From assembly GCA_903813345.2 (NCBI GenBank), contig CAIIXF020000010.1:5323169-5387168 (forward strand): DNA of 64,000 nt, given 5' to 3'. This DNA comes from Owenia fusiformis (lineage: Eukaryota; Annelida; Polychaeta; Sabellida; Oweniidae). The notes beneath the pieces were generated by a model. The model did no database searches. It was not told where the DNA came from and was given only the letters and a program-made list of their open reading frames with translations. This document shows, piece after piece, positions 26 through 62,888 of the stretch (position 1 is the stretch's first letter; the number at the start of each line of letters is the position of its first letter). Position numbers and translations under genes: made by a program.

Positions 26-248
26 ATCGCAATCATAAAATTCACCGATGGTACAGCACGTGCAATTGAACCATCATCAGTGACAGGAGAGCCCTCAATC
101 AACAAGCGAGGATTGGACAATTCCGATCACGTGATATACCAGATTGACATAGCCAAACATGAGAAGTTGGTGGTTAGGCCAAAACGAGATGCAGACAAAG
201 ACAAAGTTCTACAAGATTCACAAGATCAACTTGTTACGAGCAAAGAAG
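26..248 (+). CDS. Copy A exon: end of M12B propeptide with furin site
   Basis: The acceptor ends at 25 and the donor GT is at 249. Frame 0 reads from IAIIKFTDG through HVIYQI to [12 protein letters not shown]. The order (STCGG in the preceding copy B exon, a ligand-like IEP motif, an HVIY motif, then RPKR) matches reprolysin-type propeptides. RPKR is a typical proprotein-convertase site and would free the PAN-kringle-lectin-protease chain. The exon ends in phase 1, the phase at which the accessory modules join. The copy B counterpart at 56582-56804 differs by one replacement (Asp to Tyr before HVIY) and one silent change. Confidence 0.85.
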
Positions 249-3200
249 GTAGATATACATGTGTAGCAGGGTCGCTGTCACGCCACTTTAGTTTAATGTA
301 ATTAAATATACCGACTGTTTTCCGAGTCTATGAATAAAAAAGTAATAAAAAAATATATATATATATATACCGACTCAGTGAATCTCATTAATTTTATGCA
401 AACCGTAAAAATTCAAAAGCCAACAATTTTAGATTCAGCTTTTTGATAATTGAAATGAATTATTCTAATCTTTTGATCATAACCTATTTTGAATCTTTTA
501 AAAGCGATTATGCATAAATGGGTCATATGTAATGCCTGGGTCACATTAAGTCCGATTCATCAGCCGGTGGCGGATCGATTTAGTATTTTGTTCAAAACTT
601 AAGACATTTTGAAAATACTCGTTACTCAAGCATAGAAGAGTCTGTAATGAATCCTTGTTTCAAAATTAAATATTCTATGATAAGTAAAAACGTGAAAGCG
701 TGATAATATCAGTTATGAACCGTATCCTTATATTTTAAGCCAAGTGTAGAACGGCAGTGCATGCATACACTGCTTCGCGTACTTGTGATATTAAAATATT
801 TTACAGTGTGTCTTGACAAAGTGTTTGAAAGCAAACCTGGGATTGTTCTAAAAGGACCAGTTCATAAAACAATCACGACATCCTCAACTGATGGCTGTAA
901 GGCAGCGTGCCTTAAAGAAACCACCTTTGTTTGCAAAGCTTGTGATTTTAACACAAACAGCAAACAGTGTAGACTGAGCAAAACCGATGTATCTGTAAGA
1001 AATGCTGGAAACGAAGTTATCAATTACTTCGAACTATCCTGTAGAACCGGTAAGCTTCGTCAATTTCCATTCTTCTCTTCACATTTAATGCACTTGTGAT
1101 ATAATTTCGATTGAACGTACATTTTGGAAAACTATACTCATTTTCATGACATTCAAATTATAAATTATATTTATGTTTGCTTATGTCATCAATATTACAA
1201 GATCATAAACAAGTTTTTGCTACTTTAATAATGGGAAACTAATCTACGTCAAAATAGGATAGTTTTTCCTCGAAACACAGGCCCGGGCGCACAGCTAAAA
1301 TTTCTTTACTGAAGAGGTTAAGCTAACATGTTTTTCACAACGTAACCGTGAACGCAAAGTACAAAAATTAACAAAGGAATGTTTCGAGCGCTCATAGTTT
1401 TATGCGCGCTTAGTCTACTTCAGATACTCGTTCAGCATCAGAGTTTCGGGTTTAGAACGGGATAATTTGAAATTTGACGTTGGGTCAACGGGAACCATTG
1501 TACTCGTGTCTATTGAACACTATGCTGTCAATTTTGATTTCGATGCACAGTAGAATTCTTGCTGAACACGATGATGTATGTCATGCATGATTTAGCGCCA
1601 AAAATCTTACGAAACGAGCTCGTTTAAAATATGTATTAGAAAACCAGCCATAAAACCGCATCAATGACATACTATAGAATCATTACACGCTATGGTGTAG
1701 TCTAAACAAACACTGGATTTGAACGGCTATTTATATAAGAAGGCTACATGAATTTGTATATGGTCGAGTGATACGTACAGGCTCAGTTTCGATTATATAT
1801 GCAAAGCTTAACCTCTCAAATTTCAGCCAAAACCTGCAAGGTCTCTAGGAAAGGCAAGGAATATTCAGGTACACTAAGTGAGACAGCAGATGGTTATACA
1901 TGCCAGAGATGGGACAGCAAAGAAACCTGGAGTCATGATATCGGCAGTTCACATAATAATGATTTTCCAAATAATGAAACCCTTTCCGAAGCATCCAATT
2001 ATTGTCGGTAAGTAAATTTTACAATTGTCATATAAAATTCGCTAATATAAGCAGATGGCAAATTCCCAGTTGTACAACATTTCTTTCCATGAAAAATGCA
2101 GGTCATTGCATTGATATCGCACCATCTTTTGAATGGCCTCCGTCTCTTTTATCTTGTATAGTAGTTGCAATCGTCCAAAACACTTTCCAAAATCCTTACA
2201 GCAATCCTGATGGGGAATCGGGTGGGCCATGGTGTTATACTACTAGTAAAGAACGTCGATGGAGTTACTGCGCTGTACCAACGTGTGCAGATGGTATGCA
2301 TATGATTTTTATAGCAAGTGTACACGTATTTTTGAAATATGATATTCTAAATTGCAAATTTAATATGATGAGATCCTAAAAATTATGAAATATTCTTGTC
2401 TGAGTATTAAAAAATATCCTAACGAATTTCGGATTTGTCCATTAGTTCAATCTCTAATAAATAGTGCAAAATTATGGTTTTCTATATACATGTCTTTCTG
2501 TAAGGTTCTCTAAGAGTATATACGATCTTTTTCAAAAATTCAGACATTTGATTCACTCGACCACAACATTATAGTATTGTATACAAGCTTAAACACCCCT
2601 ATTGCGTTTTTCCACCATTTGATACTCTCGTGCGTAATTCTACTGACAATTGCAATTTACAGATAAAGATTTTAATTAAAGCTCAGATATGGCAATTATA
2701 AAATATGTTCACTAGTTTTATATTTCATCTATATCTCGATTCCTTTTTCAGATTTTGCGGGTCTTCGAAACATGAGAGAAGATGGTAATGTTTTGCATTT
2801 ACGAGTTTTATATATTTATTAATGATACTTTTACTTTTCTAATTAATTAATTTCTTAATTCTACTTTTATTCGTCAATCTTGTTACGTCCCTCCTTGTTT
2901 TATTGTAGCCTGTTTGAAAGAGGGAGGCCATTACTTTGAAGAGCATTGTTATTGGATAAAATCCTCTGAAACGTATGGTAGTCATGTTGCTGCAGAAGAT
3001 GCATGCGAAGATTTGGGAGCAAGGTAAACATTGAAATCATCAATTTAAATAGAGCTATACTACATACAGTATCATATAATTTATGGCGAAATAAATTTAA
3101 AAAAATCTAGCACATACGGTTACTATCAAATTAGGTAACTGAATGACACATTGCTCAGCTTATAGGCGACATTCTCACTAGTGTAAATGTTATATACGTG

Positions 3201-6200
3201 TTGTGTTTTATTAGATTGGTCAGCATCGATTCCCAGAATGAGACCATATTTATTGAACAACTGTTGAAAAACAAGGGTACTCCTAGTGATGAATGGATGA
3301 CTAGTGGGACTGAGATAGGACAGGATATTCCCAGAAGATGGGGCTGGGATCTAGGGGCCTGGAACAAGGTAGCTAGATCCTATATCAAAAATATGTGACC
3401 TCCTTTTGCCAAATGCATGCCATCTGTATTGAGGGAACGCTCTCAAACTTTTTATCAGGCATATAATTAGGGGTTATTGAGAACATTTTTAGACAAATTG
3501 GGAATGTGTTATGTGTGGGGTCATTACAGCTGTTCGTATTGAGGATAAAATTAGGTTTCATTTAACATGAAATTATTTTATTATGATTGTAGCCTGCAAG
3601 ACTTGGAAGGATGGCTGGGGATATGAGTGATACATCTAAACGTTGTCTGAATTTGATCATATCAAATGGACAACTTATGTTCAATGCAGTACCATGTAAC
3701 GATTCTAGCAACACATTCAAACTTCTTTGTGAAGCAGGTAAAGATGATTCATGATACACTGTACCCATGAGTCTTAATTCTATTTTAATGAATTCGAAGT
3801 AAAAGTCCCACACCACCCAGCAACCATTTGGACATGTGCTACAGTTATACTATTAAGTCAGGGCCTCGGGTACATAAAGAAATGGCAAAATTAATGTGTG
3901 TCATATCAACTTAGATATTTATCCTGCGACGCATACAGTACTATTTCATGTTTCAGGCGCTGAATCAATGGAAGACAGACCAGTGAATTTTGAAACTGCA
4001 GTTTTTATTGCAAGCCGGACCACAGAAATGATAAGAGCAAAATACAACAATGACTTCTCACTTATGACAAGCTACATCATTGTACTATATAACTCGGTAT
4101 GGTAATCATATTTAATACTAACTAACTATATATTTTGTATTTCCAGTGTTGACTGATCCTGACTCAATGCATTGAGTCAGGATCAGTCAACACTGGAAAT
4201 ACAAAATATATCCAAATTTTCCTCAAAATTGGTGACGTGTTTCTTTAAAATTTTACATATTGCAACCTTTATGTTTTGCTGACATCTCTTAATCACGCAT
4301 TTCAGAAATACGTTAAAACGTAAATACGTACTTCTTAATGGAATCTATGATAAACATAATGTTCAATACAAATGGATTGGAACATTTCTCCCAGTTATTT
4401 TTTACTGACTGACAACTTGATGATAAAAGAAATGTCTAAAATCTAGACGTACATGTACATACTATCTTTATGAATTTCTAATGCGAACTAGTGCTATAAC
4501 TAGATGAAATGATTTATCTTTGGAACTATTATTTAATTAACTAACTTTATCTGCCACTATTTTAGGTTGGGGCGAGATGGAGAGACCCCAAGATGGTGCA
4601 TCCTGCTAAAGTGACAGTTACAAGAGTAGAGTTCTTCCAGACCACCCCGGTATTTATTTTTCTTTAAGTATTACTTATTCTACGGATGCGTCACATCAGC
4701 ATTTATGTCAAACATAGCATGGCACAAAATAAATTTTAATTCATGTGAGAAACATACACGTTATATTGTGCATGTACTTAAAATGTGTGATTTCAATTTG
4801 GGTTATGTTATTCTAATGGGCACGCTTTAACTATATTTTGCAGCAAGAGTTTCTTCGTAACTTTACGGATAGGTATAACTACACCGGGCAGTGTATGGAT
4901 TTAGGAGATTGTTCAACATGGATGCGAAAGCATCCAGACAGGAAAACGTGGGACATCGGGGCATTTCATGACACGTACGTTTTCTGATCTTACCGAATTC
5001 TGCCCTAATATTAACATTTGCTAAATTAAGTGAGATGCTTGGAAGAATTGAAGCTTATTCCTTCTATGATATATTTTTGAAATGACAGAGCGGTAACCTA
5101 GAACCTAATATGCAACTTTTTTAGTTAAATAATTTTGAAATGTTTACTTTGAAAAGGAGCACCTAGGTTATGCAAACAATTTCAAACGACTTTAACTTGA
5201 ATTATGAATATTTTCTTATCATGAACACGGGTGTATCTTTTCGATCCATTCATTATCTTCAAGAAATGGACCAATCAACATACTTTTTCAAAAATGTTGA
5301 CCTAATGTTCACCAAAAATGCAACATTTTATTATATTGTTGAATGCATAATTAGAATGTGCTTTGAGACATGTTCGATTTCCTAAAAGGAACAGTTGATT
5401 GCTCCAGCGACTTTAAAGATACAGAATTTGGATGACCAAAATTAACTGAAACCAATGGATAGCATGAGATTTTTCAATGGAGAAATACCATGGAGAACAG
5501 TTATCTTAAAGCAATCAAAATTAAATCAAAATAGAGAGTAGTAATGCATTAAACATTGTAAAAAATGATTGCATTTTTGGTGAAAATGGGGTCAACATCT
5601 TTGAAATAGTATGTTGATGGGTTGATTGCTAGTTAAATATCTCCGAGTTTGTTTGACTTTATTATTACTCTATATAATTTTCTTTGAGATAATGAATTGA
5701 TCTAAAAGAAAACCTGTCTTCATTGTCAGAAAATAGTCATAATCCAAGACATAACCTTCTGAAATTGTTTGCGATAACCTACGTGCTCCTTTCTTGGCAA
5801 TATCAGGAAGAAGAATCACAAAACTTTTTTCAAGAATTCACAGTTCTGATTTCTGTTCATTGAAAAAGTAATGTATACTGAACATTGTTAGAAACTTGCT
5901 TTAAGTTATTAGATTTTAATAGTGTGTGCTGTTAATTTAGCAACCGGTTCAAAAGCCCTACTTATTACATAAGCATATTTTTGAAGACTATTTCTAATTT
6001 GTAGGGTGATATGCGGGGCCTTGGGTTGGGCTTGGTCTGGTGGTTTGTGTGGTCTGGGAGGTTCAAGCTATGTCTGTGCCCTTGAGGCATTCTTCGAGCA
6101 CTATCAGGAGGTTCGTCATGAATTTGGACATCTGTAAGTATATAATATACAGGCCTAGGGTGATACAACACATAAGCCTAAATTTTGGAATTGCGTTTTT

Positions 6201-9200
6201 CTTCAAGCTAACATGGTAGACAATCAGTCACATGTCTATCGGTTTATTTGTCTAGTCTTCGGTCTGGCAGATGCTATTCCTGCATGAAAGATTGTCTATT
6301 AACGTGTAATCCAATGTAATTTTTTCCTCTTAAAAAGGTTCGATGCACATACAATCCTTCCATTATAATACTGAGAATACTTTGAAAGTTTATTGTATTT
6401 TTCCATTATAATTCAGGTTGCGTTTTGCTCATAACGATGGATACAAAGATAAAGATTGTCACGACAATAGGGGTCTACACGCATTGTTATCTAGATGCCA
6501 AGCTAAGGACTTTAAACAAAAAATGAGGTAGGTTTTGAAAACTAAAATCTTACACGGTCGGTCAACAATGCAACTCAGTGATATCACTGTTCCACAACTA
6601 GTTACTTTGACGGAACAAAATGGACGAACTTCCACTTTACGAGTGTAATGACCTTCGATAGCAAGTCGCTACTACAGTCTCAGATGTAGTGCCAGCCCTT
6701 ATGGCTCAGGAGTAGAGTGTCTGACTCGAGAGCGGAAGGTCCTTGGTTCGATTCCCGTACGGGGCATTGAATTTAGCACACTCTCTTTCGAGTCTAGTAT
6801 CTGGCTCGGTACACTACAGCTCCCCGACGGGCGTGCCCAAGGGTCGTTACATTGTTGTCAGAAGTTATGGTATTGCACTTGAGAATCAGTTACGACGGGA
6901 CGTCGTCTTCTAGAGGGATGGTGTAATGACCTTCGATATGTAGTAGCTAGCCCTTATGTCTCAGGGGTAGAGTGACTCGAGAGCGGAAGGTCCTGGGTTC
7001 GATCTCCGTACGGGGCATTGCATTTAGCACACTCTCTTTCGAGTCTAGTATCTGGCTCGGTACACTACAGCTCCCCGACGGGCGTGCCCAAGGATCGTTA
7101 CACAAGTTTTCTGTTTACTCGATTTAAACCTACTTATAAGTCAAGCTGCAAATTATAATTATTTTTATTTTATTTATTTATTGGAAATGCTTTTAATACA
7201 GTGGAACACAACTACAGTGTACACGATTCTTCCAGACATTTAACAACACAAAAGCATACATCAGTGAATAGTCATTAAATATAAGTACCTAGAACATGTT
7301 AATGGGTCTGGGGTTTATATATACATTTTAAAAGACCCTTTACACATTTATCGAACTTAAAAGCTTCTTCTTGTCCCGAAAATGTGAAAATGTCCTCTTC
7401 TTAACCCCAACATGTTTTAGTTTGCACACTGGTTGATAAAAGATCTGATGATAGTGCTGGATTACATTTTTCTATAACATTTTTATAAAAAGTATTTCTA
7501 TCATTACCAAAGAAAGGGCAAACAAAAAGTCTATGTCGGATGGTTTCTTTTACATTTTTATCACATAAAGTACACATTCCATTTCCCTGTCCCCATTTTT
7601 CGTATTCTGTTCTTAAGCCAAAACAACCTGATCTAGCTTTGAACTTAAGTTTTTGCCCACAGAAGTCAAAATCTGTGGTCAGGTAGTTTTTAAGAAGGGA
7701 TGGGGATTAAGACGTTGATACAGTGAGAGTGATGAGTTGTCCTTCAATGCAGATTGAAAATTATTAATCCTCTGATCTGACATCTTGATAAAAGCCTGAT
7801 ACCAGTCAATATCATCTCTGTAGATTACATTATTCAGTCCATTTTTATTATTTTATGTTTGAAAAGTAAGGGGATGCTTTGCTTTCATCATTAGTATGAA
7901 GCCATCAAACATAGACTTAAATATCTTTTCGTGTAATTAACCTTCTTTGATATTACATTTTCGTATATAAAGCAATCTATTTGTCTTTATTCAATGATAT
8001 CGACAAGAGGTCTCCAGCCTAAATCACCTAGAAGTGCCTCTCTGGCCAGACAACATCTAATTTGGAGAATTGATCTCCCAGTGTTATATTGCATTGATTT
8101 CATTTTATCTGTGTTAGTTTTGTTAAATGTGAAAATAGGACAGCCATGAAGAATGGCAGGGACAAACATTGAATCGTACACTTCCCCTCCAAATTTGGGA
8201 CGCATGACATTTCAGTGTTTTGTCAAAGTGGAGGCTATTGTGGCAAAGTTACCCCTGGCTGATGTCACCAAAAGACAAAAGAAAGTTTGAAGTTTGAACA
8301 GTATTTATTTTTAAATATTAAAACCAAATAATTCAAAATTAACTCGTCAAAATTCCAATGAAATTCCATAGACAGGATGTCTAAACTTGAAGATTCAAAG
8401 TGTATAAATGACGAATATATTTATGTTTCTAACATAATTTGAGATCCTAAGCAAAATACATCTTTATTAACTAATAACTGATCCAGGCTTAATATTTTTA
8501 TATTCAAAACCAAAGTGAAGTTCATTTAAAATTAAATTGTTTATGTGAAACTTGAAGTTAATTTCAGATGCTGAATGTATTTAACAATAATTTTTAAAAT
8601 CTTACAAGTACAGAAAACCGTCAAACTTCTTTTGCAGTATCAATATAACATAAGCAGAATATATGTTCTTATCAAATTATTTACAAATCTTTCAAAATGT
8701 AAATTTCACCGACAAAATACTGGTTTTTGGTCAATTTGTACATCATTGCCCATCAATTTATCATATCTTATTGTTTTACAAAAATGACATCATATACCAA
8801 TATGTTTATGAATCTATGGAAGCAAGACAAAACATCATTACTTGAATATGAGAGCTTCTTGGCTACATTCAAAGTTATACTGTCACTCAATAGATAAGAC
8901 TTCCCCCTTTCTTGGAACCACTTCTTGCCATTGGCTATGTGATTTACCTGTCAAATCTACCATCAGTCCTTACTATAAAACATGTTCAATTGAGTTCAAG
9001 ATATCTTTTTCTAAGTTTAACTTTGGCATTCTGCAACATCCATAGAAGTTTAAGATTGTGTAATTGTGTTCAAGGTAATATTGATAAATTACTAAATTAA
9101 TAACATTTTCCATTTTAGAAGCCTCAGTTAATTTTACAAAAATTAAATGGAAGTGAACAATTTCTTCTTGTTTTACATTATGATGTCTTATTCGAAAGTT

Positions 9201-12200
9201 GTTTATATTCACTTGCCAAGAAATGATGCATCTTCAACCTCTTCAGTAAACAAAGCTACCAGTTCCCAAAACATTCTGCTGTAATGATGATATCAGCACA
9301 ACAGAAGTATTTATCCTAAGATTTCTGTATTTGTAAGCAATATGTAGCATATTCAAGATTATTATGACCTAAGTTTCAAAACTCTATGACCTAAAAATAA
9401 ACTTTGTCACACTATCATACCTTGAATTCGTTTAGACTTTTCAGCAAGGAAGTCAATGTGACTGGAGTCTTTTAAAGAACGGTCAAAATGAAATAATAAC
9501 TAGACATGTAAATTGAACAAGTTCAATTTAAGACTCCAGATTTCTGACTTTTTTTTAAGCTAAATTCTTGTAAGCTGAGTCATTCAGAATAAGCTGAGTC
9601 AGCTAGAATATAGACATTTAGACAACTCTTAAGAATGTTATCTTCGACTCCATTGGCTTAACATGGGGATATCATCATATCGACTTTTCGAGACTTCAAA
9701 CCGCTATAACTATCTAATCAGAAGTTGGATCGAAATTTGGTTTAAAGATTCTGATTCCTGAGAAAATTCTACCCTTAATTCATAACTCATACGTTAAATT
9801 TGGAGAACTTTTCAGACACCATATCTCAAAAGTGGGTCAAAATACTTTCTGACGGCAGAAGGCTAACACTATAAGCACACTCTTTGCTACCTGTATCTGT
9901 ATACAAAATTTCGAAGCAAATCAATAAAGTGTAATGTCAGAATCGCAAAAATAAGGGAAAACTATGAATTTGACCTATATTTTGACCTAGGCATTTTGGT
10001 GTCCAAATTTTAAAGCTAGATAGCCTTCGAGGTTCCCTTCTTTTATAGGCTTTCAGAATGGTAAGCTGTACTCAGTTTATATCTGGTATTTTACACTTCA
10101 AAAAGTGTCTCATTGACATAACATAGGGCACCAAATTTAGTGATTTTTGAGCTTTCAAAACGCCATTTCTTCCGAACCGAAAGTCGGATTGAAATTTGGT
10201 TTGCAGATTCGGATTCCTGGGAAAATTCTACCCTTAATTCATAGCTCATATGTTAAATTTTGATAACTTTTTATTTTGACCTACTTTCCGGACACCATAT
10301 CTCAAAAGTGGGTCAAAATACTTCCTGACGGCAAAAGGCTAACACTATTAGCATACTTTTTGCTATCTGTATACCAAATTTCAAGGAATATTATTAAAGT
10401 GTAGTGTCAGATTCGCAAAGTTAAGGAAAAACTCAAACATTGACCTAGATTTTGACCTTGGCTTTTTAGTGTTCAAATTTTGAGACAAAGTAGATTTTGA
10501 GGTCAATTGTTCTTGTAGGCTTTCATTATGTTGGCTGCATTAAGTCTAAATACCGTGTTTTTCCAATTTATAATTTTCTTCAGCCCCATTGACTTCTCAA
10601 AAAGTCATTTAAAGATTATTACTGCAATCTATACTTGGAGGAGTAGTTCCTTGAACTACTGCACAATCTCATCAGATGTTATCATATCATAATATTTAAT
10701 AATGTAATTTTGATATTATATTTTCTCTTACTCTACACATTTTATTGTTGCACCTGTTATTGTAGAAGAGACCTTTAATCATTTTCATTAAATCACTTTA
10801 TTTTCTCAATTATGTACAAGATCATACTTTACAAAATAACATGTACACTTTTTATAATATTGAACAAATCATTGTAAATACCATTATGTGGCACCTAATA
10901 CTCCCTCTTGGGGGTCATAGCCACTAAAACCTGTAAATATGTTACATTGATTTTAATTTAAAAAAAAAAAAAAAAAAAAAACATGGGGCACCAAAAAAGC
11001 GATTTTTGAGACTTCAAACCGCCATAACTTTCGAACCGGAACTCGGATTGAAATTTGGTTTGCAGATTCAGATTCCTGAGAAAATCCTACATATATTTCA
11101 TAACTCACACCTTGAATTTTGAGAATTTTTTGTTTTGACCTACTTTCCGGACGCCATATTTAAAAATCGGTAAAAGTTATCAAAAATCTAATGTCATATC
11201 TTTGCTTCGGCTATTTCTTAACTACATAATGAAAAAAAGATGAAGGAGTTCCGATAATTATCGAAGAAGATAATTGAAAGAATGTTGAAAATGTAAGATT
11301 TGACCTAGTTCTTGACCTTTGACCTAGAAACAAATTTGACCTAATTTCCCAGAAAGCCAGAAACATTCCTTAGTTAACCATGTAAGTTGGTTTAAGTGAG
11401 ATGTTATAGTTGGTGAGAAAATCTGTATGGAGGATTTTCATCTGGAGTCTAATAATTTGGCACAAAGCTAGAAAATATAGTTTAGTTTTAACAAGTTTCT
11501 TCGATTTGGAATTTGTTTTGTAAATGAAGTTGCAATTCATATATTTAGCCCCTCGCTTTTGTTACATTGACGAAAGTCCGTTATATATCAATGTATGTTA
11601 CTTGGACGACTTACGTCAATGTAACAAAAGCGATGGTCTAAATGCATGCATTACAGCTTTATTAAAAAATCAAATTACAAACCAAGAGCATTTCTAAAAG
11701 CTAGACTATATTGTCTTTCAACTTTGTGCCAAATGATAATCCGCACGACTAAATTTGCTTTTTGCATTAAGTGATATATTGTGTTGGTAGTGTCAAATAA
11801 CCAGACTTCCCGGCTTTAATTCATATGCAATTCTATAATTATGTTATTCATTATCTAACTCATCAGAGACCTTGGCCCTGGTGCGTGTGTCTACGATGAT
11901 GTGTATGAATACTACCAAGAACCTTTGATGTTAGAAGATACTGATATGGAAGGACAACGATGGGACATGGATAAACAATGTGAGCTTCACCTCGGTAAAG
12001 GCTGGTCATTCTTTCAAGACGAAGGGGATCGCAAATTCGTATATGGAACGAGAAAGGTATTCAGTCGTTTGTTGTTCAATTTTGTTAAATTGAATTTAGT
12101 AACTCATCCTTTTCAAGCATAAAATACTAAGGTGGTTGCAACTGAACACAAAAAGAATGATGAAAATACAATGGACTAGAGATTCCATCTGGAGTATAAT

Positions 12201-41859: not shown

Positions 41860-41865
41860 AATAAA
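41860..41865 (+). terminator. Polyadenylation signal of copy A
   Basis: AATAAA about 41 nt after the copy A stop codon, which gives a very short 3' UTR. No competing in-frame continuation was seen downstream. Confidence 0.6.
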
Positions 41866-48245: not shown

Positions 48246-49275
48246 AATAAACTTGATCTGTTTGCCCTTCAACACCCCGCTAGCTAACTTTTGTGTCATC
48301 TTTGACACAGAACATTGTTTCCCAGGTGGTTGCTTGGTACTTCATCAAAAGAAATCCCACATGGTACATTTTAGGCTTTGTATAGAAATTCGTACCTCTT
48401 ACCCACGAAGCCACATTTGTGGCCCCCGAAACAGTCTTTGAAGGGTTCAACCTTTAAAATATTAATATTATTCAATCTCCGTCTATATGCTGTAAAGTAG
48501 ATGCATTTACGCACTCGTAGGCCTACATGCCTACATGTCTTCAAGATGTAACATTTGTATAGTCATTAAAAGGAGGCCATAATTGCACAATTGTTTATCT
48601 TTGCTATTTTTCTTTCATCAAAATTGCACAATTGAAATGCTTTTTCACTCTAGAAGAAGTACTCATGTTGTGATTAAATAAGATGAAACACAGAATTCAA
48701 TTTGGCAAACATGCTTAGATTTAATTTAGCGTAGGTTTTCCCTATTGAGCGGGCCTTTGAATAGCGCTTTTTGACAAACAATAAAAAACGCAAATGAACA
48801 ATACTGGCTTTATTTTATGACTCTATATTTATCTATCTTTGCCTAGACGAATTTTACATCATCTCGAAGACTAATTGACCAAGCTCAGTAATAAAAACAA
48901 TCTATTTGAGTTATATAATTCTAGTAGATCATTGAACCAAATACTAAACAGGACATGGCGTGATATTAATCGCCAATTCATCAGCCATTCAAAATATCAC
49001 AAGTATGATAAAACTATATAATAATCATAATGACAATAATTGGCCCCGCGTAATAAGGCAGAACATATTGTGAGTTTTTTTAATTTTTACTGTCATAACA
49101 GACGTGTACCCAGTATCTAAAGAAATATTAAAAAATATATAAAACTAATATCCTGCTATTTGTCAGTTCATCATGGGGGTTGGGCAATTAATTTCTCTTC
49201 CGATTGCTTTAAATAATGCATCTCCTAAATATTCATCCTATCCACGACTGACAGCAGCCAGGGTAGGTCTCCACG
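48246..49275. other. Intergenic region upstream of copy B
   Basis: Should contain the copy B promoter, but no convincing TATA, initiator or CpG-rich patch was found. No gene recognised. Confidence 0.4.
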
Positions 49276-49320
49276 ATGGGACTACAAGTACTAAACTTGG
49301 GAATTCTCTCCATTGCGCTG
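49276..49320 (+). CDS. Copy B exon 1: start codon and signal peptide
   Basis: ATG in a reasonable context (CCACGATGG) encodes MGLQVLNLGILSIAL and is followed by the donor GTAAGT. With the next exon (IITVAEC) this makes a hydrophobic signal peptide of roughly 20 residues, consistent with secretion. No strong TATA box was seen in the 150 bp upstream; only weak AT-rich strings such as TTTAAATAA near 49210. Confidence 0.75.
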
Positions 49321-52300: not shown

Positions 52301-55300
52301 TCTTTACAGTTCAAAATCAAGGCTAGCACTGGTGATTTGGAAAGTAAATGCAATCAAGGTTAATCCCCTTGCATGTGCACACTGTGTGTAAATCAAAGCT
52401 ATTCTCCTAGCAGGGTTTGAAAATATAATTGAAATACATAAAAATATAACTCTCCACAGTAGGGTTTGACATCCTGTCACACACACGCGGACTCGTCATA
52501 ATTTGTCCCAAATTATCCTTGCTCTTGCTACCACAGGAATTATAAAATACATTAAATTCTAACAACAAAATGTCACACACACGTGGAACATAGAAAATAA
52601 CATTATGAAATACCATTATGAAGGATTATCCTCCCCTAATTAACATCCACTACCTTAAAATGGTAGTCAATAAAATTATGTTCTGTTAACAAAGTAACTT
52701 TTTATATATGTATTGTGTTTCTTTTATAGTATAAATAACAGTAACATATAACAGTAATTTGAATTATTAAAATAGAACAATAGTTAAGAAAATAACATTT
52801 ATTACAGAACGCTTATCGCAAATCACTAAACGCGATAAAATATATATCTAAATTTTTCTGACATCATGTCTGCATCATGGCATTCTGAGCTGCTAATCTT
52901 TTTGATCTCCTGATCGTCTCAGTTTCAGGCACATCTTCATGTTTGTTTTGTTTTATTCCTCTTACTTTCTGTGGAACTTCTTTTAAGTCTACTATGTTTA
53001 CAGCTTTTCTCGCTCCATACTTATTTTCTATCGTGTAAACATCATTTTTCCTTTGTACAACTGTATATATGTCTTCTTCAAAAGAATCTTGGATTTTATT
53101 TCTTCCTTGTATTCTCTTCCTGGTAAGAACTTTTGATCCTATTTCTATAGCAGTCTCTCTAGCTTTATTGTCAAAGATTTCTTTTCTTCTGTCTGCTTCT
53201 TTGTCTATTTTCATTGCTGCTTTTGTGTGTGCTTCTTTCAATATTCTTTCATGTTCTACTATCCAACTTTTGTTCTCTTTCTGAACATGTTCTTCTTTTT
53301 CTTTATCCTTGTCACAAGTATCAACATCGTCAACACCTAGCTGAATGGATATGGGAAGTCTCGGTTCTCGACCAAACATCAGAAAGAAGGGGGAGTATCC
53401 CGTAGAACTGTGTGGTGTTGTGTTATAACAGTAGGTCAGTTCTTTGATATAATCAGGCCATCTTCTCTTCTTGTCTTGTTCAAGAGATATCAGAAGGTTG
53501 TGAAGCGTCCTATTAAATCTTTCGCATTGGCCGTTTCCTGTGTTTCTTTAATTCTGTCCATGCATTGCATCAGAGATTGTGTGAACTGTGCTACGGATTC
53601 AGTTGCGTCTTGTTTCCTTGTGTAGAATTCAGTGTAGCTTTTGTGTGCTGAGGTTTGACGTCCAAAAACTCTCTTAAGTGTTTTGAAGATTTCATCTGGT
53701 GTTGTATTTGGGCCTAAGTATTTAGCTTCTCTCCGTGGTATTGGGTCAAGGTGATAAATTAAGAAGTCCACTCGGTCCCTCTCACGTATGTTCCTGATTG
53801 CAATATTCGCATCCTCGCACCAATCATAGATGTCTTGTCCCTTTGATCCATTGTATTTACACAGTTTTGGAAGTTTTGAGTTTCCTTGAAGACCTTTGTT
53901 TCTTGGTTCATTGTTGTCATTGTCTCGTCCAGTGTTGCTGTTATCACTGTCAGCTTCAGGTGGGTTGCCTAACAAATCGACATTGTATTTCTTTTGAAGT
54001 TCAGCTAGTTGTCTTTCCAGAGATATCATCTGTAGTAATCCAGCTTTCTCCTCCTTTTGTTCTTGTTCTAAGATTTCAGCCATTTCATCGATTTTCTTTT
54101 TCGCATCCTCTCCTATCGCATCCTTGGGTTTTGTTCCGCCAGTAGCCATTACGGTTTAAAAATATTTTATTTCGCGTACGTAATCGCGTAATTAATTGCG
54201 TAAGTAATCACGTGAGTAACCGCGTAATTAATTGTGTAAGTAATGACGTAAGTATAAAAAGCGTAGTGATTTGCGAATCGGCGCGTAAAATGTGAACCAA
54301 CACACTTAAAATTGGTGAAAAATTTATCACATTATAACATCCGAGCGTGCGATAAAAATATGTGATATTTTGTCGGGGATACTAAACAATTCACATCACA
54401 CACTAAACAATATATACACTTTATAGAATATTTTATAAACTCTGAGGTACTCTCTTAAAGTATAAGCTCTGGTTATAAATGAATGTTAAGGATATAAGAC
54501 ATCAAATATGGCAAGGCTATCAGAAAAATGTCCAGGCTACTAAACAAAATGATACTCATTTGCAAAAATGATTGTCCTGTGTCCTCCAATACTATTGGAC
54601 AAATCATATGAACCTGGTACTAGATAAAATGTATGTCCTGGTTTACTTTAGGTTCAGTGGAATTTGTAAAGACAAAATATAAAATATATGTCCAGGCTAC
54701 TAATCAAAAATATAAATGTACACTGACAAGGGTACAGAACAAATATGTGAGCTGGGCAACAAGCAAAATATGTGTACAAATTATTTGTCCTGGATACTGA
54801 CCCTAAATTTTAATCATGTTCATGGCTAAATCACCTGATGCATAATTGCATGTATTTAATATTGAACTGTGTGAGTCAACTTGTCAATAATGTTGGCATA
54901 TTCTAAAGGGTAAAAAGTGACAAAAATATATGACAATTTCTTACCATGTCTTTACAGTTCAAAATCAAGGCTAGCACTGGTGATTTGGAAAGTAAATGCA
55001 ATCAAGGTTAATCCCCTTGCATGTGCACACTGTGTGTAAATCAAAGCTATTCTCCTAGCAGGGTTTGAAAATATAATTGAAATACATAAAAATATAACTC
55101 TCCACAGTAGGGTTTGACATCCTGTCACACACGGAATAACTCCAATATATAACGTACCAATATATATATTATATGAACTATGAATGTACCAATGTCGTTG
55201 GCTTAACTCGTAGATGCTGGGGATTCTTTTTTCATAGATACTTTTTGTTCTGTCACTAATTTTCTATTTCTTGATCTAATCTAATGTATCGAATACATTT

Positions 55301-58300
55301 TATTTAGTGATAAATTTCATATATGAAGAATTATCCCACCCTAAGTGCTTTATATGATTGTATGATTTATATTGTATAACTGCAATATAAAACCAACACT
55401 CATCGTATACAACTCTTGAGAACGATATACTCCTGGATAACGTATACAACCCCTGGGCAGCGTATACAACTCTTCGACTTCGATATATGTACAACTGCTG
55501 AATTTCGATTAACCTTTTATTGATTAAAGATTAGGGTGGGATAATAATATCATATAATGGTTGATTCTGAATATCGTTATACTCTCGTGAGTATATGATA
55601 TATTCACTCGTTCCCTTCAGTCACTCGTGAATATATCATATACTCACTTGAGTATAAACACGATATACGGAATCAACCATGATATAACCTCATAATATAA
55701 AATAGATTAAAACCGTCAGGAGAAACCCAACGTTTCCGGACCATCATCTAAAAAAATACACGAGGGTATTGAGAATATTGCTACTGCGTAAAGTCATTGA
55801 CATTACATTCAAAGATCAACCATAGCGTCGATTAATTGATCTTTCGAAATAATAATTGTGATGGACTATATTTGTATGTCAATCGACTATATGAGTGATT
55901 TGTTCAATGTTCATCATTTTTGTTTCAGATAAAGGCACAGCTACTGGCACAGTAAGCATGTCTACATGCGGAGGAAAGACAGTAAGTGTATTTCACATAA
56001 TTTTGAATTATCACGAAAAGCTATGTAAAATAATTGTGAATGTCGATTTACCTTAATTTAATTCTATTTTTCTACTTTCAATGCAAAATGCCCGCTTAGA
56101 CAGTTTAATTTAGTATCAGGTATAGGAGAAAATGCCAGATATCATACTCAAAACATTACATGTATTTAGAGATAAGATACGTGGGAGTTCGGTTTTCAAA
56201 ACCTTTCAGAATAATTGGATCATTACATCCTCCTATACAAGCTTGCAAAAGGCTGCCATGACGGCCATTTTGAAATCATAAATTCAAAATGGCAGCCCTC
56301 ATTAACATTCTAAATATCATTTTAAAACAATTTAAAAACAAAAATATGTTTGACAGTACGTGAACTGTTTAAAGCAAGGCAAACAAGCCCAGATAAAATA
56401 TTAGGATGGGCTACTCTTCATCAATTTTTGACCAAAACGGATATAAAATATGGCTGTGTGTCAACTTCACGTAATTTAACTTAACTTAATATTACCCTTG
56501 CATTAGTTTTTTGTATTACTGAAATATCTATAGTGTTATTGTGGTCTATTGCTAAATCCATGCTCTTTCAATTTCACTTAGATCGCAATCATAAAATTCA
56601 CCGATGGTACAGCACGTGCAATTGAACCATCATCAGTGACAGGAGAGCCCTCAATCAACAAGCGAGGATTGGACAATTCCTATCACGTGATATACCAGAT
56701 TGACATAGCCAAACATGAGAAGTTGGTGGTTAGGCCTAAACGAGATGCAGACAAAGACAAAGTTCTACAAGATTCACAAGATCAACTTGTTACGAGCAAA
56801 GAAGGTAGATATACATGTGTAGCAGGGCCGCTGTCACGCCACTTTAGTTTAATTAAATATACCGACTTGAATCTCATTAATTTTATGCGAACCGTAAAAA
56901 TTCAATAGCCAACAATTTTAGATTCAGCTATTTGATAATTGAAATGAATTATTCTAATCTTTTGATCATAACCTATTTTGAATCTTTTAAAAACGAATGT
57001 GCATAAATGGGTCATAATATGTAATGCCTGGGTCACATTAAGTCAAGCATAAAAGAGTCTGTAATGAATCATTGTTTCAAAATAGAATATTCTATGATAA
57101 GTTAAAACGCGAAAGCGTGATAATATCAGTTATGAACCGTATCCTCATATTTTAAGCCAAATGTAGAACGGCAGTGCATGCATACCCTGCTTCGCGTACT
57201 AGTGATATTAACATATTTTACAGTATGTCTTGACAAAGTGTTTGAAAGCAAACCTGGGATTGTTCTAAAAGGACCAGTTCATAAAACAATCACGACATCC
57301 TCAACTGATGGCTGTAAGGCAGCGTGCCTTAAAGAAACCACCTTTGTTTGCAAAGCTTGTGATTTTAACACAAACAGCAAACAGTGTAGACTGAGCAAAA
57401 CCGATGTATCTGTAAGAAATGCTGGAAACGAAGTTATTAATTACTTCGAACTATCCTGTAGAACCGGTAAGCTTCATCAATTTCCATTCTTCTCTTCACA
57501 TTTAATGCACTTGTGATATAATTTTTTTAAATTTTTCGATTGAACGTACATTTTGGAAAACTATACTCATTTTCATGACATTCAAATTATAAATTATATT
57601 TATGTTTGCTTATGTCATCAATATTACAAAATCATAAACAAGTTTTTGCTACTTTTATAATGGGAAACTAATCTACGTCAAAATAGGATAGTTTTTCCTC
57701 GAAACACAGGCCCGGGCGCACAGCTAAAATTTCTTTAATTTCAGCCAAAACCTGCAAGGTCTCTAGGAAAGGCAAGGAATATTCAGGTACACTGAGTGAG
57801 ACAGCAGATGGTTATACATGCCAGAGATGGGACAGCAAAGAAACCTGGAGTCATGATATCGGCAGTTCACATAATAATGATTTTCCAAATAATGAAACCC
57901 TTTCCGAAGCATCCAATTACTGTCGGTAAGTAAATTTTACAATTGTCATATAAAATTCGCTAGTATAAGCAGATGGCAAATTCCCAGTTGTACAACATTT
58001 CTTTCCATGAAAAATGCGGGGGTCATTGCATTGATATCGCACCATCTTTTGAATGGTCTCCGTCTCTTTTATCTTGTATAGTAGTTGCAATCGTCCAAAA
58101 CACTTTCCAAAATCCTTACAGCAATCCTGATGGGGAATCGGGTGGGCCATGGTGTTATACTACTAGTAAAGAACGTCGATGGAGTTACTGCGCTGTACCA
58201 ACGTGTGCAGATGGTATGCATATGATTTTTATAGCAAGTGTACACGTATTTTTGAAATATGATATTCTAAATTGCAAATTTAATATGATGAGATCCTAAA

Positions 58301-61300
58301 AATTATGAAATATTCTTGTCTGCGTATTAAAAACGAATTTCGGATTTGTCCATTAGTTCAATCTCTAATAAATAGTGCAAAATTATGGTTTTCTATATAC
58401 ATGTCTTTCTGTAAGGTTCTCTAAGAGTATATACAATCTTTTTCAAAAATTAAGACATTTGATTCACTCGACCACAACATTATAGTATTGTATACAAGCT
58501 TAAACACCCTATTGCGTTTTTCCACCAGTTGATGCTCTCGTGCGTAATTCTACTGACAATTGCAATTTACAGATAAAGATTTTAATTAAAGCTCAGATAT
58601 GGCAATTATAAAATATGTTCACTAGTTTTATATTTCATCTATATCTCGATTCCTTTTTCAGATTTTGCGGGTCTTCGAAACATGAGAGAAGATGGTAATG
58701 TTTTGCATTTACGAGTTTTACATATTTATTAATGATACTTTTACTTTTCTAATTAATTAATTTCTTAATTCTACTTTTATTCGTCAATCGTGTTACGTCC
58801 CTCCTTGTTTTATTGTAGCCTGTTTGAAAGAGGGGGGTCATTACTTCGAAGAGCATTGTTATTGGATAAAATCCTCTGAAACGTATGGTAGTCATGTTGC
58901 TGCAGAAGATGCATGCGAAGATTTAGGAGCAAGGTAAACATTGAAATCATCAATTTTAATAGAGCTATACTACATACAGCATACAATTAATGGCGAAATA
59001 AATTTAAGATATCGTATTCAACACATACGGTTACTATCAAATTAGGTAACTGAATGACACATTGCTCAGCTTATAGGCGACATTCTCACTGGTGTAAATA
59101 TTACAGTATATACCTGTTGTGTTTTATTAGATTGGTCAGCATCGATTCCCAGAATGAGACTATATTTATTGAACAACTGTTGAAAAACAAGGGTACTCCT
59201 AGTGATGAATGGATGACTAGTGGGACTGAGATAGGACAGGATATTCCCAGAAGATGGGGCTGGGATCTAGGGGCCTGGAACAAGGTAGCTAGATCTTATA
59301 TAAAAAATATGTGACCTCCTTTTGCCAAATGCATGCCATCTGTATTGAGGGAATGCTCTCAGACTTTTTATCAGGCATATAATTAGGGGGTATTGAGAAC
59401 ATTTTTAGACAAATTGGGAATGTGTTATGTGTGGGGTCATTACAGCTGTTCGTATTGAGGATAAAATTAGGTTTCATTTAACATGAAATTATTTTATTAT
59501 GATTGTAGCCTGCAAGACTTGGTGCGATGGCTGGGGATATGAGCGATACATCTAAACGTTGTCTGAGTTTGATCATATCAAATGGACAACTTATGTTCAA
59601 TGCAGTACCATGTAACGATTCTAGCAACACATTCAAACTTCTTTGTGAAGCAGGTAAAGATGATTCATGATACACTGTACCCATGAGTCTTAATTCTATT
59701 TTAATGAATTCTAAGTAAGAGTCCCACACCACCCAGCAACCATTTGAACATGTGCTACAGTTATACTATTAAGTCAGGGCCTCGGGTACATAAAGAAATG
59801 GCAAAATTAATGTGTGTCATATCAACTTAGATATTTATCCTGCGACGCATACAGTGCTATTTCATGTTTCAGGCGCTGAATCAATGGAAGACAGACCAGT
59901 GAATTTTGAAACTGCAGTTTTTCTTGCAAGCCGGAGCACAGAAGTGATAAGAGCAAAGTACAACAATGACCTCTCACTTATGACAAGCTACATCCTTGTA
60001 CTATATAACTCGGTATGATAATCATATTTAATACTAACTAAACTATAAACATTGAGTCAGGATCAGTCAACATAAGAAATACAAAATATATCCAAAATTT
60101 CATCAAAATTGGTGACTCGATTCTTCAAAATTTTACATATTGCAACTTATATGTTTTGATTACATCTCTTAATCACGCATTTCAGAAATACGTTAAAACG
60201 TAAATACGTACTTCTTAATGGAATCTATAATATATATTCAATATAAATTGATTGAAACATTTCTCCCAGTTATTTTGTACTGACTGACAACTTGATGATA
60301 GACGCACATGTACATACTATCTTTATAAATTTCTGATGTGAACTAGTGCTAGAACTAGATGAAATGATCTATCTATGGAACTATTATTTAATTAACTTAC
60401 TTTATATGACACTATTTCAGATTGGGGCGAGATGGAGAGACCCCAAGATGGTGCATCCTGCTAAAGTGACAGTTACAAGAGTAGAGTTTTTCCAGACCAC
60501 CCCGGTATTTATTTTTATGCGTCACATCAGCATGTATGTCAAACATAGCACGGCACAAAATAAATTTTAATTCATGAGAAACATACATATTATATTGTGC
60601 ATGTACTTAAAATGTGTGATTTCAATTTGGGTTATGTTATTCTAATGGGCACGCTTTAACTATATTTTGCAGCCAGAGTTTCTTCGTGACGTTACGGATA
60701 GGTATAACTACACCTGGCAGTGTATGGATTTTGGAACTTCAAGATGGATGCGAAAGCATCCAGACAGGAAAACGTGGGACATCGGGGCATTTCATGACAC
60801 GTACGTTTTCTGATCTTACCCATTTCTGCCCTAATATTAACATTTGCTAAATTAAGTGAGATGCTTGGAAGTATTGAAGCTTATTCCTTCTATGATATAT
60901 TTTTGAAATGACAGAACCCAATATGCAACTTTTTTAGTTAAATAATTTTGAATTGTTTACTTACTTTTGAAAATTCCTTGGCAATATCAAGAAGAAGAAT
61001 CACAAAACTTTCAAGAATTCACAGTTCCGATTTATCTTCATTGAAAAAAATAATGTATACTGAACATTGTTAGAAACTTTCTTTAAGTTATTAGATTTTA
61101 TTATTGTGTGCTGTTAATTTAGCAACCGGTTCAATTGCCCTACTTGTTACATGAGCATATTTTTGGTCATTTTGATTGAAGACTCCTTTTAATTTGTAGT
61201 GTGATATGCGGGGCCTTGGGTTGGGCTTGGTCTGGTGGTTTGTGTGGTCTAGGAGCTTCAAGCTATATCTGTGTCCTTAAGGGATTCTTCGAGCACTATC

Positions 61301-62888
61301 AGGAGGTTCGTCATGAATTTGGACATCTGTAAGTATATAATATACAGGCCTAGGGTGATACAACACATACGCCTAAAGACCTTCTAATTTTGGAATTGCG
61401 TTCTTCTTTAAGGTAACATGGTAGACAATCAGTCACACGTTTGTCTATTTATCTGTCTAGTCTTCGGTCTGGCTGTCTTCCTCTCTGTCCGTCTGCCGTC
61501 CATCTGTCCGTCAACGATGGTGAACCGGCGTTTTAAAACCTCTGTCGATAAGATATTCCAGTTTATTGCTGAAAATTATGTTTCCAAAAATAATCCATTA
61601 ATCTGCTAGAAATTGTCAAGGTTCCCTTTTTAAATTACAGGTAGCTTAGTTTAGAGGTCAACTCAATGATTTTCAAAGGTTTTGTTTACAATTTCGAAAT
61701 GGCTTTCTCTTACTATTGTAAGAAAACATGTTTTTGCCCTTTATGGTTACAGTTTTTTACATCTTTAAGTTTAAAGATAACAATAATTTCTAAAAATGGT
61801 CACCTCTTTAACATGTCCAAATGTATTTCATCAATTTACCTTCACTTATAGATTAAAGATAATGTTCAGAAGTTTGGGTAATTGGCTTATTTTATTGGCC
61901 TTGTCCAAAAGTATTGCTTTTTTGTTTTGAATGAGTTCAATGACATCTAGAGGTTTTCTGCCAAATTTCGAAATGGCTCCTTCTTTAGTGGTTGAATTAT
62001 CACATTTATACCTATATGTCTAAAACATTTATTACGAATTTTGAAAAAGTTCAAAATATACACCAGCATATGTGAGCCATCTCTTAAACAGGAACTGGGG
62101 ATGCATCACTATAATGTAACCAATTGACCATTTTATAAATATTTATGGAAATATATATATGGCAGCAATGGTAGTTGCTAGGGTCAGAATACATGGAAGC
62201 GTATTACAAGAGTCTTTTGATATCATGATCTCACAAGTTCCATTTTGATCAACCTAAAACACTATTGTAATGTAACTTGATGAGCTTAATGACATGTGGA
62301 TTGTGTTAATATTAAAATTGTGATCCTTGTAAGAGCAAATGAACTTTCAAAGGTGTTTCAACATTTTGTCAATGGGGATCTAGCCCGATTTTTTCAGACA
62401 ACTTGAAAAACTAAAATTTGAAAAAGGTAAATAACTGTGCAAATCAAAAAGTTTTTTGATAGAAAATTTCACCTAGAATTCAAATATGCCATCAAATAAA
62501 ATAAACCATGGGTCTTTTATGGGTAAAAATGTAGAACTCATTAAAACGAGACTTCAAAACGAGATTTCAAAGCTATATTGAAGACTCTATTGGTCATATT
62601 TCTTGTACTTGTAGTAGACGAGTGATCTTTTTAAGTTCCTCGCAGTGGCAGATGTTGTTCCTATATGAAATATTGTCTATTAACGTGTAATCCAATGTAA
62701 TTTTTTCTCTTAAAATGGTTCATTATAATACTGAGAATACTTTGAAAGTTTATTGTATTTTTTCCAATATAATTCAGGTTGCGTTTTGGTCATAACAGTG
62801 GATACAAAGATAAAGATTGTCACGACGATAGGGGTTTAAACGCATTGTTATCTAGATGCCAGGCTAAGGAATTTGAACAAAAAATGAG
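49276..62888 (+). CDS. Copy B: mosaic ADAMTS-like metalloprotease (3' partial, 17 exons)
   Basis: Tandem paralogue of copy A, running off the right edge. Exons: 49276-49320, 50064-50231, 50673-50832, 55929-55981, 56582-56804, 57224-57466, 57745-57925, 58122-58213, 58662-58694, 58819-58933, 59131-59284, 59509-59653, 59873-60012, 60421-60504, 60673-60800, 61200-61328, 62778-62888. Phases agree throughout. The first five exons give a signal peptide and a complete propeptide; the rest repeat PAN, kringle 1, linker, lectin-like and metalloprotease. Accessory exons are almost identical in residues to copy A, while the metalloprotease exons differ at about 25 residues. The disintegrin, TSP1, kringle 2 and Cys-rich exons would lie beyond 64000. 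Confidence 0.9.
50064..56804 (+). CDS. Copy B: M12B propeptide (four exons)
   Basis: Exons 50064-50231, 50673-50832, 55929-55981 and 56582-56804. They read from CVQFYDAHIEFTDEAG through VPVFLTIR, VQFTLDTEAYCVVL, GTATGTVSMSTCGGKT and [14 protein letters not shown] to HVIYQI and RPKR. G..S.STCGG followed by IEP and HVIY is the typical layout of reprolysin propeptides, which keep the enzyme latent. The intron between 50832 and 55929 holds the Gypsy-type remnant and foldback repeats. Confidence 0.85.
51478..51612. repeat. Short tandem repeat, about 36 bp, four units
   Basis: Copies of AACTGATCTTGTATTCAAGC plus TACCTAAATCACT, the last two identical. In intron 3 of copy B, just outside the Gypsy-type element. 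Confidence 0.85.
52864..53560 (-). pseudogene. Integrase C-terminal fragment (Ty3/Gypsy type)
   Basis: Minus strand from about 53560 reads GNGQCERFNRTLHNLL, LTYCYNTTPHSSTGYSPFF and LMFGREPRLPIS, hallmarks of the Gypsy integrase catalytic-core end, followed by a charged C-terminal tail to the stop at 52864. The first catalytic residues are absent. Confidence 0.8.
53490..54149 (-). pseudogene. Retrotransposon gag-like ORF fused to integrase DNA
   Basis: Opens with Met and a glutamate/lysine-rich coiled-coil-like segment (about residues 10-55), then a capsid-like part with LPKLCKYNGSKGQDIYDW and TTPDEIFKTLKRVFGR. The last residues (about 53560 to 53490) are read from integrase DNA in the wrong frame. 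There is no CCHC knuckle because the deletion removed it. Confidence 0.7.
54170..54890 (-). other. Retroelement leader region with degenerate repeats
   Basis: Between the gag start and the right LTR. Contains about five ACGTAA/GCGTAA-type words at 54175-54250 and loose copies of GTCCAGGCTACTAA(A/T)CAAAA between 54380 and 54790. No clear tRNA primer-binding site seen next to the LTR. Confidence 0.5.
55317..55545. mobile_element. MITE-like element with TTATCCCACCCTAA ends
   Basis: Left GAATTATCCCACCCTAA (about 55329) is matched by TTAGGGTGGGATAAT (55531-55545). Inside are several CGTATACAACTCTT-like words about 30 bp apart. Confidence 0.6.
55549..55686. repeat. 138-bp imperfect palindrome
   Basis: ATCATATAATGGTTGATTC at the left pairs with GAATCAACCATGATAT at the right, and GAGTATATGATATATTCAC pairs with GTGAATATATCATATACTC across a short loop. 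Lies about 240 bp before copy B exon 4. Confidence 0.8.
57224..58694 (+). CDS. Copy B: PAN domain, kringle 1 and linker (four exons)
   Basis: Exons 57224-57466 (PAN), 57745-57925 and 58122-58213 (kringle 1), 58662-58694 (linker). Residues are the same as in copy A; the few nucleotide differences are silent. The intron before the kringle is about 500 bp shorter than in copy A because the inverted-repeat element at 1309-1818 is missing, which shows the original acceptor context (TTTAATTTCAG). Confidence 0.88.
58819..59653 (+). CDS. Copy B: C-type lectin-like domain (three exons)
   Basis: Exons 58819-58933, 59131-59284 and 59509-59653. Same CTLD landmarks as copy A. Only two residue differences were found, both in the third exon: Arg to Ala before MAGDM, and Asn to Ser after KRCL. 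Calcium/sugar motifs are missing here too. Confidence 0.85.
59873..62888 (+). CDS. Copy B: metalloprotease domain (five exons)
   Basis: Exons 59873-60012, 60421-60504, 60673-60800, 61200-61328, 62778-62888. The zinc motif reads HEFGHLLRFGHNS: His ligands and Glu kept, Arg for Gly at position eight, Asn after the third His, and Leu in place of the Met-turn Met (NALLSRC). Compared with copy A, changes pile up near the active site, including Ala/Gly and Asp/Ser flanking the third His. The third exon is one codon shorter (128 against 131 nt) and lacks the Cys of the copy A GDCST segment. Confidence 0.85.
61475..62642. mobile_element. Insertion in copy B intron, absent from copy A
   Basis: About 1.17 kb between GGTCTGGC and GGCAGATG, which are joined in copy A near 6265-6275 (GGTCTGGCAGATG). 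It starts with a TCTGTCCGTCTGCC-rich stretch. No terminal inverted repeat and no coding domain recognised. Confidence 0.65.

Follow-up and report, generated by a model that had tools for sequence, protein, structure and literature searches.

The 64,000-nucleotide (nt) window analysed here, which is positions 5,323,169 to 5,387,168 of the forward strand of Owenia fusiformis contig CAIIXF020000010.1, contains two tandem genes for ADAMTS-like proteins, arranged head-to-tail on the plus strand, in which a PAN, a kringle and a C-type-lectin-like domain (CTLD) stand between the propeptide and a metalloprotease-like domain. The first gene, copy A (exons from 26 to 41819), has its 5′ exons beyond the window start, enters at the end of the propeptide (position 26) and closes with a TGA stop codon (41817–41819). 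The second gene, copy B, begins at 49276 with a first exon that encodes a signal peptide, as judged by eye, and leaves the window after exon 62778–62888. The module order of the family to which both copies belong is signal peptide, propeptide, RPKR, PAN, kringle 1, linker, CTLD, M12B metalloprotease-like domain, disintegrin-like/Cys-rich region, TSP1, kringle 2, and the C-terminal half of an ADAMTS Cys-rich domain. The initial annotation had given 26–62888 as the span of one continuous reading; the reading stands, while the span resolves into two genes.

Hand splicing at GT-AG junctions joins the first 13 exons of copy A (26–248 through 6417–6527) into 593 open codons, and eight further downstream exons, placed with the guidance of the deposited Owenia protein P0001, extend the reading to 967 open codons up to the TGA. 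A recount found GT-AG boundaries at 20 of 20 introns in copy A and 16 of 16 in copy B, with phases that match between the copies. The 13 exons of copy A recur in copy B at 56582–62888 with equal lengths except for one 3-nt deletion, and a repeat of the opening 8.1 kb of the window starts at 56557, with 91–100% identity in the blocks listed (20 of 31 repeat families).

The module list and its order, proposed by the initial annotation together with a Pfam search as the check, are borne out on the plus strand by the splicing of both copies and by Pfam and paralog alignment. Specifically, in the 967-residue model of copy A, Kringle (two stretches, E = 7e-24), TSP_1 (8e-11), PAN_1 (3e-9) and ADAMTS_CR_2 (1.4e-6) score above their cut-offs, Lectin_C is borderline, and Reprolysin_3 is weak (0.06). 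Against a cut-off of 22.6 bits, Lectin_C scores 22.2 in this model, 23.2 in the 593-residue model, 24.1 in P0001 and 24.0 in the Owenia paralog P0003. For the paralog P0121, no Lectin_C match is listed at E 0.1; its CTLD stretch is nonetheless 41% identical to that of P0001. The metalloprotease-like label of the window copies rests on their homology to paralogs in Owenia with Reprolysin scores above cut-off, the domain of P0001 being 37% identical to that of P0121 (8e-39). The propeptide label likewise comes from alignment, with Pep_M12B_propep above its cut-off only in P0121 (23.7 bits), below it in P0003 (21.7 bits) and not listed for P0001. The ADAMTS_CR_2 and TSP_1 matches identify an ADAMTS-type disintegrin-like region and a TSP1 repeat, with TSP1_ADAMTS below its cut-off. 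No trypsin-like domain (PF00089) is matched up to E 0.1 in P0001, P0003, P0025, P0121 or the copy A model, and NCBIfam matches none of four proteins.

The terminal module, named Cys-rich in the initial annotation, holds for its C-terminal half and not for the remainder. The part that follows kringle 2 matches the C-terminal half of the ADAMTS Cys-rich domain (shuffle p ≤ 3e-4 in three of three proteins), and the ADAMTS spacer domain is absent after it. An insertion of kringle 2 inside an ADAMTS Cys-rich domain was considered and found to be half supported, the segment that precedes the kringle giving p values of 0.73, 0.89 and 0.13 against the N-terminal half, and Pfam does not detect that half even after excision of the kringle.

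A furin-type site, a sequence motif with predicted cleavage, lies at the end of the propeptide as RPKR, RTKR or RIKR. In the copy A model, RPKR is the only R-x-K/R-R and lies 5′ of PAN; in P0003 and P0121, the last such motif (RTKR and RIKR, respectively) also lies before PAN, with none between PAN and the protease. The added blocks are symmetrical in phase (PAN 1-1; kringle 1 1-2-1; linker 1-1; CTLD 1-2-0-1; kringle 2 1-2-1), so that each can be added or skipped with the frame intact. Symmetrical-phase exon sets are the classical signature of exon shuffling, and the presence of the extra blocks as symmetrical phase 1-1 sets thus fits such an origin.

Among 5.8 billion proteins, the best match to the spliced copy A protein is P0001, an unnamed Owenia fusiformis protein of 1026 residues. 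P0001 can be placed on the window exon by exon. Over residues 1–653 it agrees with copy B at every position once the PAN exon is left out (0 mismatches), and copy A differs from it at 12 of 375 residues from the disintegrin-like region to the C-terminus. In each copy, an intron of 219 nt that contains no AATAAA lies between the CTLD exons and the protease exons. Four of the five Owenia family proteins found cross this junction (P0001, P0003, P0121 and, as a partial protein, P0025), in agreement with the earlier claim that one gene spans the lectin and metalloprotease exons. P0003, P0121 and P0025 are listed on contigs that differ in length from that of P0001, indicating that the domain order is independent of the window locus. 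The N-terminal order, PAN included, recurs in P0003 and P0121. The whole of P0121 reads propeptide, PAN, kringle, CTLD region, Reprolysin (1.2e-11), ADAMTS_CR_2, TSP_1, two kringles and Cys-rich end, the CTLD and the Cys-rich end being placed by alignment, and both P0121 and P0025 hold the protease, TSP1, kringle and Cys-rich end within one protein. P0003 ends soon after TSP1, without a second kringle. The fifth protein, P0015 (568 residues), begins after TSP1 and consists of the segment that precedes kringle 2, four kringles and the Cys-rich end; its contig has the same listed length as that of P0003, so the two could be parts of a single gene divided by the annotation, or P0015 could be a protein in its own right.

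The whole domain order was found in Owenia alone, in homology searches of limited sensitivity: the search with a P0003 fragment did not recover P0001, which is a known relative (~40% identity), and P0121 falls outside the length filter of the profile search. Residues 385–840 of P0003 as query retrieved three proteins of 2579 candidates, all from Owenia. The profile search retrieved six of 4844, namely three Owenia proteins, a Lingula adt-1-like ADAMTS, a fish properdin-like protein and echidna ADAMTS6, and no PAN, kringle or lectin domain is listed for the last three. Among the best 120 of 819 matches to the copy A protein, ADAMTS-type Pfam domains occur in P0001, P0003 and P0025. When the P0121 stretches for CTLD, protease and disintegrin are compared with 124 proteins at E 1e-3, the matches are confined to P0003, P0025 and P0001, with ADAMTS6 in addition for the protease. 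The profile also finds ADAMTS13 and ADAMTS-5 among the solved structures, over the protease-to-TSP1 region. Paper searches for a PAN-kringle-CTLD-protease order, mostly over titles and the starts of abstracts, found no description, and the earlier statement that no described protein has this order stands as far as the protein and paper searches reach.

The ADAMTS catalytic consensus is HEXXHXBG(/N/S)BXHD, with a Met 14–20 residues after the third His, and all human ADAMTSs are predicted to be functional and active (PMC4448532). In copy A (HEFGHLLRFAHN) and copy B (HEFGHLLRFGHN), the third His is followed by N, Arg occupies the G/N/S position, and there is no HD. The first Met lies 31 residues past the third His, the Met-turn and about seven loop residues being gone in both copies. 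The lost loop falls within exon 6417–6527 and is therefore not accounted for by how the known exons are spliced. The paralogs P0003 (HELGHVMNMNHD), P0025 (HELGHTMGMRHD) and P0121 (HELGHVMGMKHD) all have G or N at the G/N/S position and HD, with Met at 19 and 20 after the third His in all three; the equivalent Met is at 17 or 18 in two of two ADAMTSs from outside Owenia. To judge from these motifs, P0003, P0121 and P0025 are probably active enzymes.

The protease domain of the window copies is under weaker constraint than the PAN/kringle/lectin block. Specifically, between copy A and copy B the protease-like exons have 26 nonsynonymous and 6 synonymous changes, versus 3 and 11 in PAN, kringle and CTLD (the propeptide end, with 1 and 1, is left out of this sum; Fisher p 2e-4 for the contrast). 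Compared with neutral expectation, the protease shows no difference (binomial p 1.0), whereas the accessory block departs strongly from it (p 6e-6), and omega is 1.1 (0.49–2.9) in the former versus 0.075 (0.018–0.23) in the latter. The initial annotation had suggested that the accessory modules may direct the protease to a particle, matrix or clot-like substrate, a possible role here too; that the window copies are simply a protease of this kind is not supported, since they lack G/N/S, HD and the Met-turn and are less constrained there.

The N-terminal arm resembles that of plasminogen-type proteins. PAN and kringle 1 align with plasminogen and HGF as one stretch. At the positions of the plasminogen kringles that we take to form the lysine pocket (an anionic pair, an aromatic and a cationic residue), kringle 1 carries D..E, W, R and W in the alignment. 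As judged by eye, the second kringle of the window copies and the first kringle of P0003 lack part of this set. The CTLD of copy A matches lithostathine and CLEC4 sequences. Calcium-dependent C-type lectins carry EPN/QPD and WND motifs; the copy A residues aligned to EPN and WND of structure 3vyj differ, and since the sugar-binding motifs are lacking, "lectin" denotes the fold only.

Table 1. Exons and modules of the two tandem genes, with the evidence for each assignment
Feature	Position	Strand	Evidence
Copy A propeptide end with furin-type RPKR	26–248	+	Spliced model; P0001 match; sole R-x-K/R-R in 967-residue model
Copy A PAN exon, phase 1-1	807–1049	+	Pfam PAN_1 1e-10 on open reading frame (ORF) 794–1096
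Copy A kringle 1 exon 1, phase 1-2	1827–2007	+	Pfam Kringle 3.9e-9
Copy A kringle 1 exon 2, phase 2-1	2202–2293	+	Kringle 6.3e-8, 33.3 bits against cut-off 34.3 (ORF); two exons joined 2.1e-20
Copy A 33-nt linker exon, phase 1-1	2752–2784	+	Present in P0001; identical in copy B
Copy A CTLD	2909–3737	+	Lectin_C 1.2e-4, 23.2 bits against 22.6 (593-residue model), 22.2 (967-residue model); PDB lithostathine 5.8e-7; no Pfam match for exons taken singly
Copy A metalloprotease-like	3957–4096, 4566–4649, 4844–4974, 6005–6133, 6417–6527	+	Alignment to P0121, P0003, P0025; motif test (HEFGHLLRFAHN, no Met-turn Met)
Copy A disintegrin-like/Cys-rich	11867–12056, 13354–13461	+	ADAMTS_CR_2 1.4e-6, 29.0 bits against 27.3
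Copy A end of disintegrin-like region and TSP1	14789–14967, 35359–35416	+	TSP_1 8e-11; splice sites
Copy A TSP1-to-kringle 2 segment, no assigned domain	37383–37557	+	P0001 match
Copy A kringle 2, phase 1-2-1, diverged	39988–40150, 41441–41532	+	Kringle 2.4e-4 on first-exon ORF (21.8 bits, below cut-off); two Kringle stretches in model
Copy A Cys-rich C-terminal half and stop	41662–41819	+	Adt-1-like 1.5e-6 (28.8 bits, below cut-off 31.8); shuffle test of P0001 equivalent against ADAMTS6
Copy B signal peptide and propeptide	49276–49320, 50064–50231, 50673–50832	+	P0001; splice sites
Copy B propeptide with RPKR	55929–55981, 56582–56804	+	P0001 mapping; splice sites
Copy B PAN exon	57224–57466	+	Absent from P0001
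Copy B kringle 1, linker and CTLD exons	57745–59653	+	P0001 mapping
Copy B metalloprotease-like	59873–60012, 60421–60504, 60673–60800, 61200–61328, 62778–62888	+	P0001 mapping; gene continues past window

The introns and the intergenic region carry several repeats. In copy A, intron 14968–35358 contains 53-nt satellite arrays at 17079–17623 and 33965–34483, in opposite orientation and 98% complementary over 461 nt. Two ORFs, 15075–16226 (minus strand) and 30612–31334 (plus strand), resemble by eye the C-terminal part of a non-LTR (long terminal repeat) reverse transcriptase, with weak Pfam results (zf-RVT 0.028 for 30612–31334 and none for 15075–16226), and a 24-nt tandem array at 23683–24553 gives a long repetitive open frame. 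Copy A intron 35417–37382 holds a mariner/Tc1-like element (35427–36740) with 321-nt inverted repeats (95%) and a minus-strand DDE_3-like transposase ORF (2.7e-4, 21.3 bits, below the 28.6 cut-off). Copy B intron 50833–55928 holds a young LTR element (52239–55132) flanked by two identical 246-nt direct repeats, with minus-strand ORFs that are gag-like (PNMA 1.9e-4, Retrotrans_gag 0.014) and integrase-like (rve_3 0.012), all these matches being below cut-off. Furthermore, arrays of ~146-nt units lie between the genes (45576–48183) and arrays of ~145-nt units in a copy A intron (38228–39107).

The reading that we favour, with a probability of about 60%, is that the window holds a tandem pair from an Owenia ADAMTS-like family that acquired its PAN-kringle-CTLD arm by exon shuffling, and that this pair acts mainly in binding, as decoy or as scaffold, with proteolytic activity lost or much reduced, while the paralogs are probably active. 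Exon shuffling would have put the PAN-kringle-linker-CTLD block between the furin site and the M12B domain, in line with the observed order, phases and paralogs, and a kringle ahead of the Cys-rich C-terminal half. The proteins are predicted to be secreted and cut by furin at RPKR; because RPKR precedes PAN and no such site lies between PAN and the protease, the mature protein would keep PAN-kringle-CTLD at its N-terminus, ahead of the protease. Since kringle 1 retains lysine-pocket-like residues, the arm probably binds lysine-bearing partners, perhaps in mucus, matrix or cuticle. Owenia inhabits a sand tube, and a role in mucus or tube secretion is on that ground a fair guess and no more. In a flatworm, knockdown of a six-kringle protein gives a non-adhesive phenotype, and the role proposed for it is to hold a glue protein rich in lysine (PMC9229212). 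The window pair may relate to its probably active paralogs as HGF does to plasminogen. A bolder version, which we put forward tentatively at somewhat under even odds, is that this family, an ADAMTS lineage of one annelid group, is a metzincin repeat of the plasminogen/HGF case: a PAN-kringle arm on a protease, with tandem members that became pseudo-proteases, kept the zinc ligands, dropped the Met-turn and were retained for the arm.

Several observations weigh against the favoured reading. Neither copy has lost any of the three zinc-binding His residues or the general-base Glu, and some activity may therefore remain. The protease exons contain no stop codon or frameshift; this weighs little, and an intact frame as a sign of constraint on the protease was rejected as not significant (2.5 frameshifts expected under neutrality, P0 0.08). 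Intron divergence is 8.5% in introns 9–11 versus 2.0% in introns 2–8 (intron 1, at 4.3%, and intron 12, at 30%, are left out of this yardstick), and because the introns near the protease are the more diverged, the 5′ half may have been homogenised between the copies; scaled by introns, the values become 0.65 for the protease versus 0.19 for the accessory block, a smaller contrast that persists. P0001 is without PAN although exon 57224–57466 is present, open and symmetrical, which is a matter of exon skipping or of gene-model choice. Transcriptomic evidence and ab initio models both went into the published Owenia annotation (PMC9977687); P0001, which may belong to that set, is a deposited model and does not by itself prove a transcript. 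P0015, without protease, CTLD or PAN, represents the C-terminal part of the family on its own. Finally, AlphaFold models of P0001 and P0121 reached predicted local distance difference test (pLDDT) values of only 29.6 and 30.5 and were discarded.

The retained His and Glu residues could also mean that both proteins remain working proteases whose S1′ loop and specificity have been remodelled, the fast change being due to diversifying selection, as in some venom or immune proteases. The omega of ~1.1, with an upper bound of 2.9, and the open frames, whose sole indel is an in-frame 3-nt change, are compatible with this alternative. We nevertheless consider it unlikely, since the Met-turn and some seven loop residues are gone in both copies, the ADAMTS consensus requires G/N/S and Met (PMC4448532), and nonsynonymous change does not exceed the neutral level. 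That both copies are functionless, decaying pseudogenes would account for a protease-like domain that evolves loosely and has lost its motif, but is improbable given the strong purifying selection on PAN, kringle and CTLD (3 of 14 changes nonsynonymous), the intact splice sites and frames, and the near-identity of the C-terminal part of copy A to P0001. An annotation or assembly artefact, with two genes or neighbouring exons read through, could draw on the omission of PAN from P0001, on the 20-kb repeat-bearing intron 14968–35358 inside copy A ahead of the second TSP1 exon, and on P0015 as a deposited C-terminal part without protease, but is very improbable because phases agree throughout, P0003 and P0121 repeat the N-terminal order on contigs of other lengths, P0121 and P0025 unite the protease with the C-terminal modules, and the published annotation drew on transcriptomic evidence (PMC9977687); read-through of two genes was rejected on the 219-nt CTLD-protease intron and on the paralogs.

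In this family, a plasminogen-type arm and a lectin-like domain stand ahead of a protease domain whose canonical and apparently broken sites coexist in one genome, so that which part is kept for function becomes testable. The Owenia family furthermore offers a clean natural case of exon shuffling, datable by sampling other oweniids.

In ADAMTS proteins, the protease normally follows directly after the pro-region. The Owenia family shares with ADAMTSs (ADAMTS13, 6qig; ADAMTS-5, 2rjq; adt-1-like) the propeptide with furin site, the M12B and disintegrin-like domains, TSP1 and part of the Cys-rich domain, in the same relative order, but differs in the PAN-kringle-CTLD insertion after the furin site, in the kringle that precedes the half Cys-rich domain and in the lack of a spacer. 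The full ADAMTS order is thus not present, and the window pair in addition lacks the ADAMTS active-site consensus; the family is ADAMTS-like yet outside ADAMTS by order and, in the window pair, by active site. With plasminogen and HGF (4a5t, 7mo7) it shares PAN followed by kringle as an N-terminal arm, but its C-terminal domain is metzincin-type rather than trypsin-like, and CTLD and TSP1 are added. In limpet adhesive mucus, P-vulgata_14 likewise combines a zinc metalloprotease with kringle and C-type-lectin-like modules, but is astacin-type (M12A), with CUB, SUSHI, ApeC and ShKT, and thus differs in family and order; P-vulgata_8, a further parallel, is a reprolysin that lacks the HEXXH motif (PMC7333891). 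Inactive ADAMs also retain M12B as a non-catalytic module, but by another route: in those listed in a review (PMC11266112), His or Glu is changed and the Met-turn typically remains, whereas the window pair keeps His and Glu and has the Met-turn gone.

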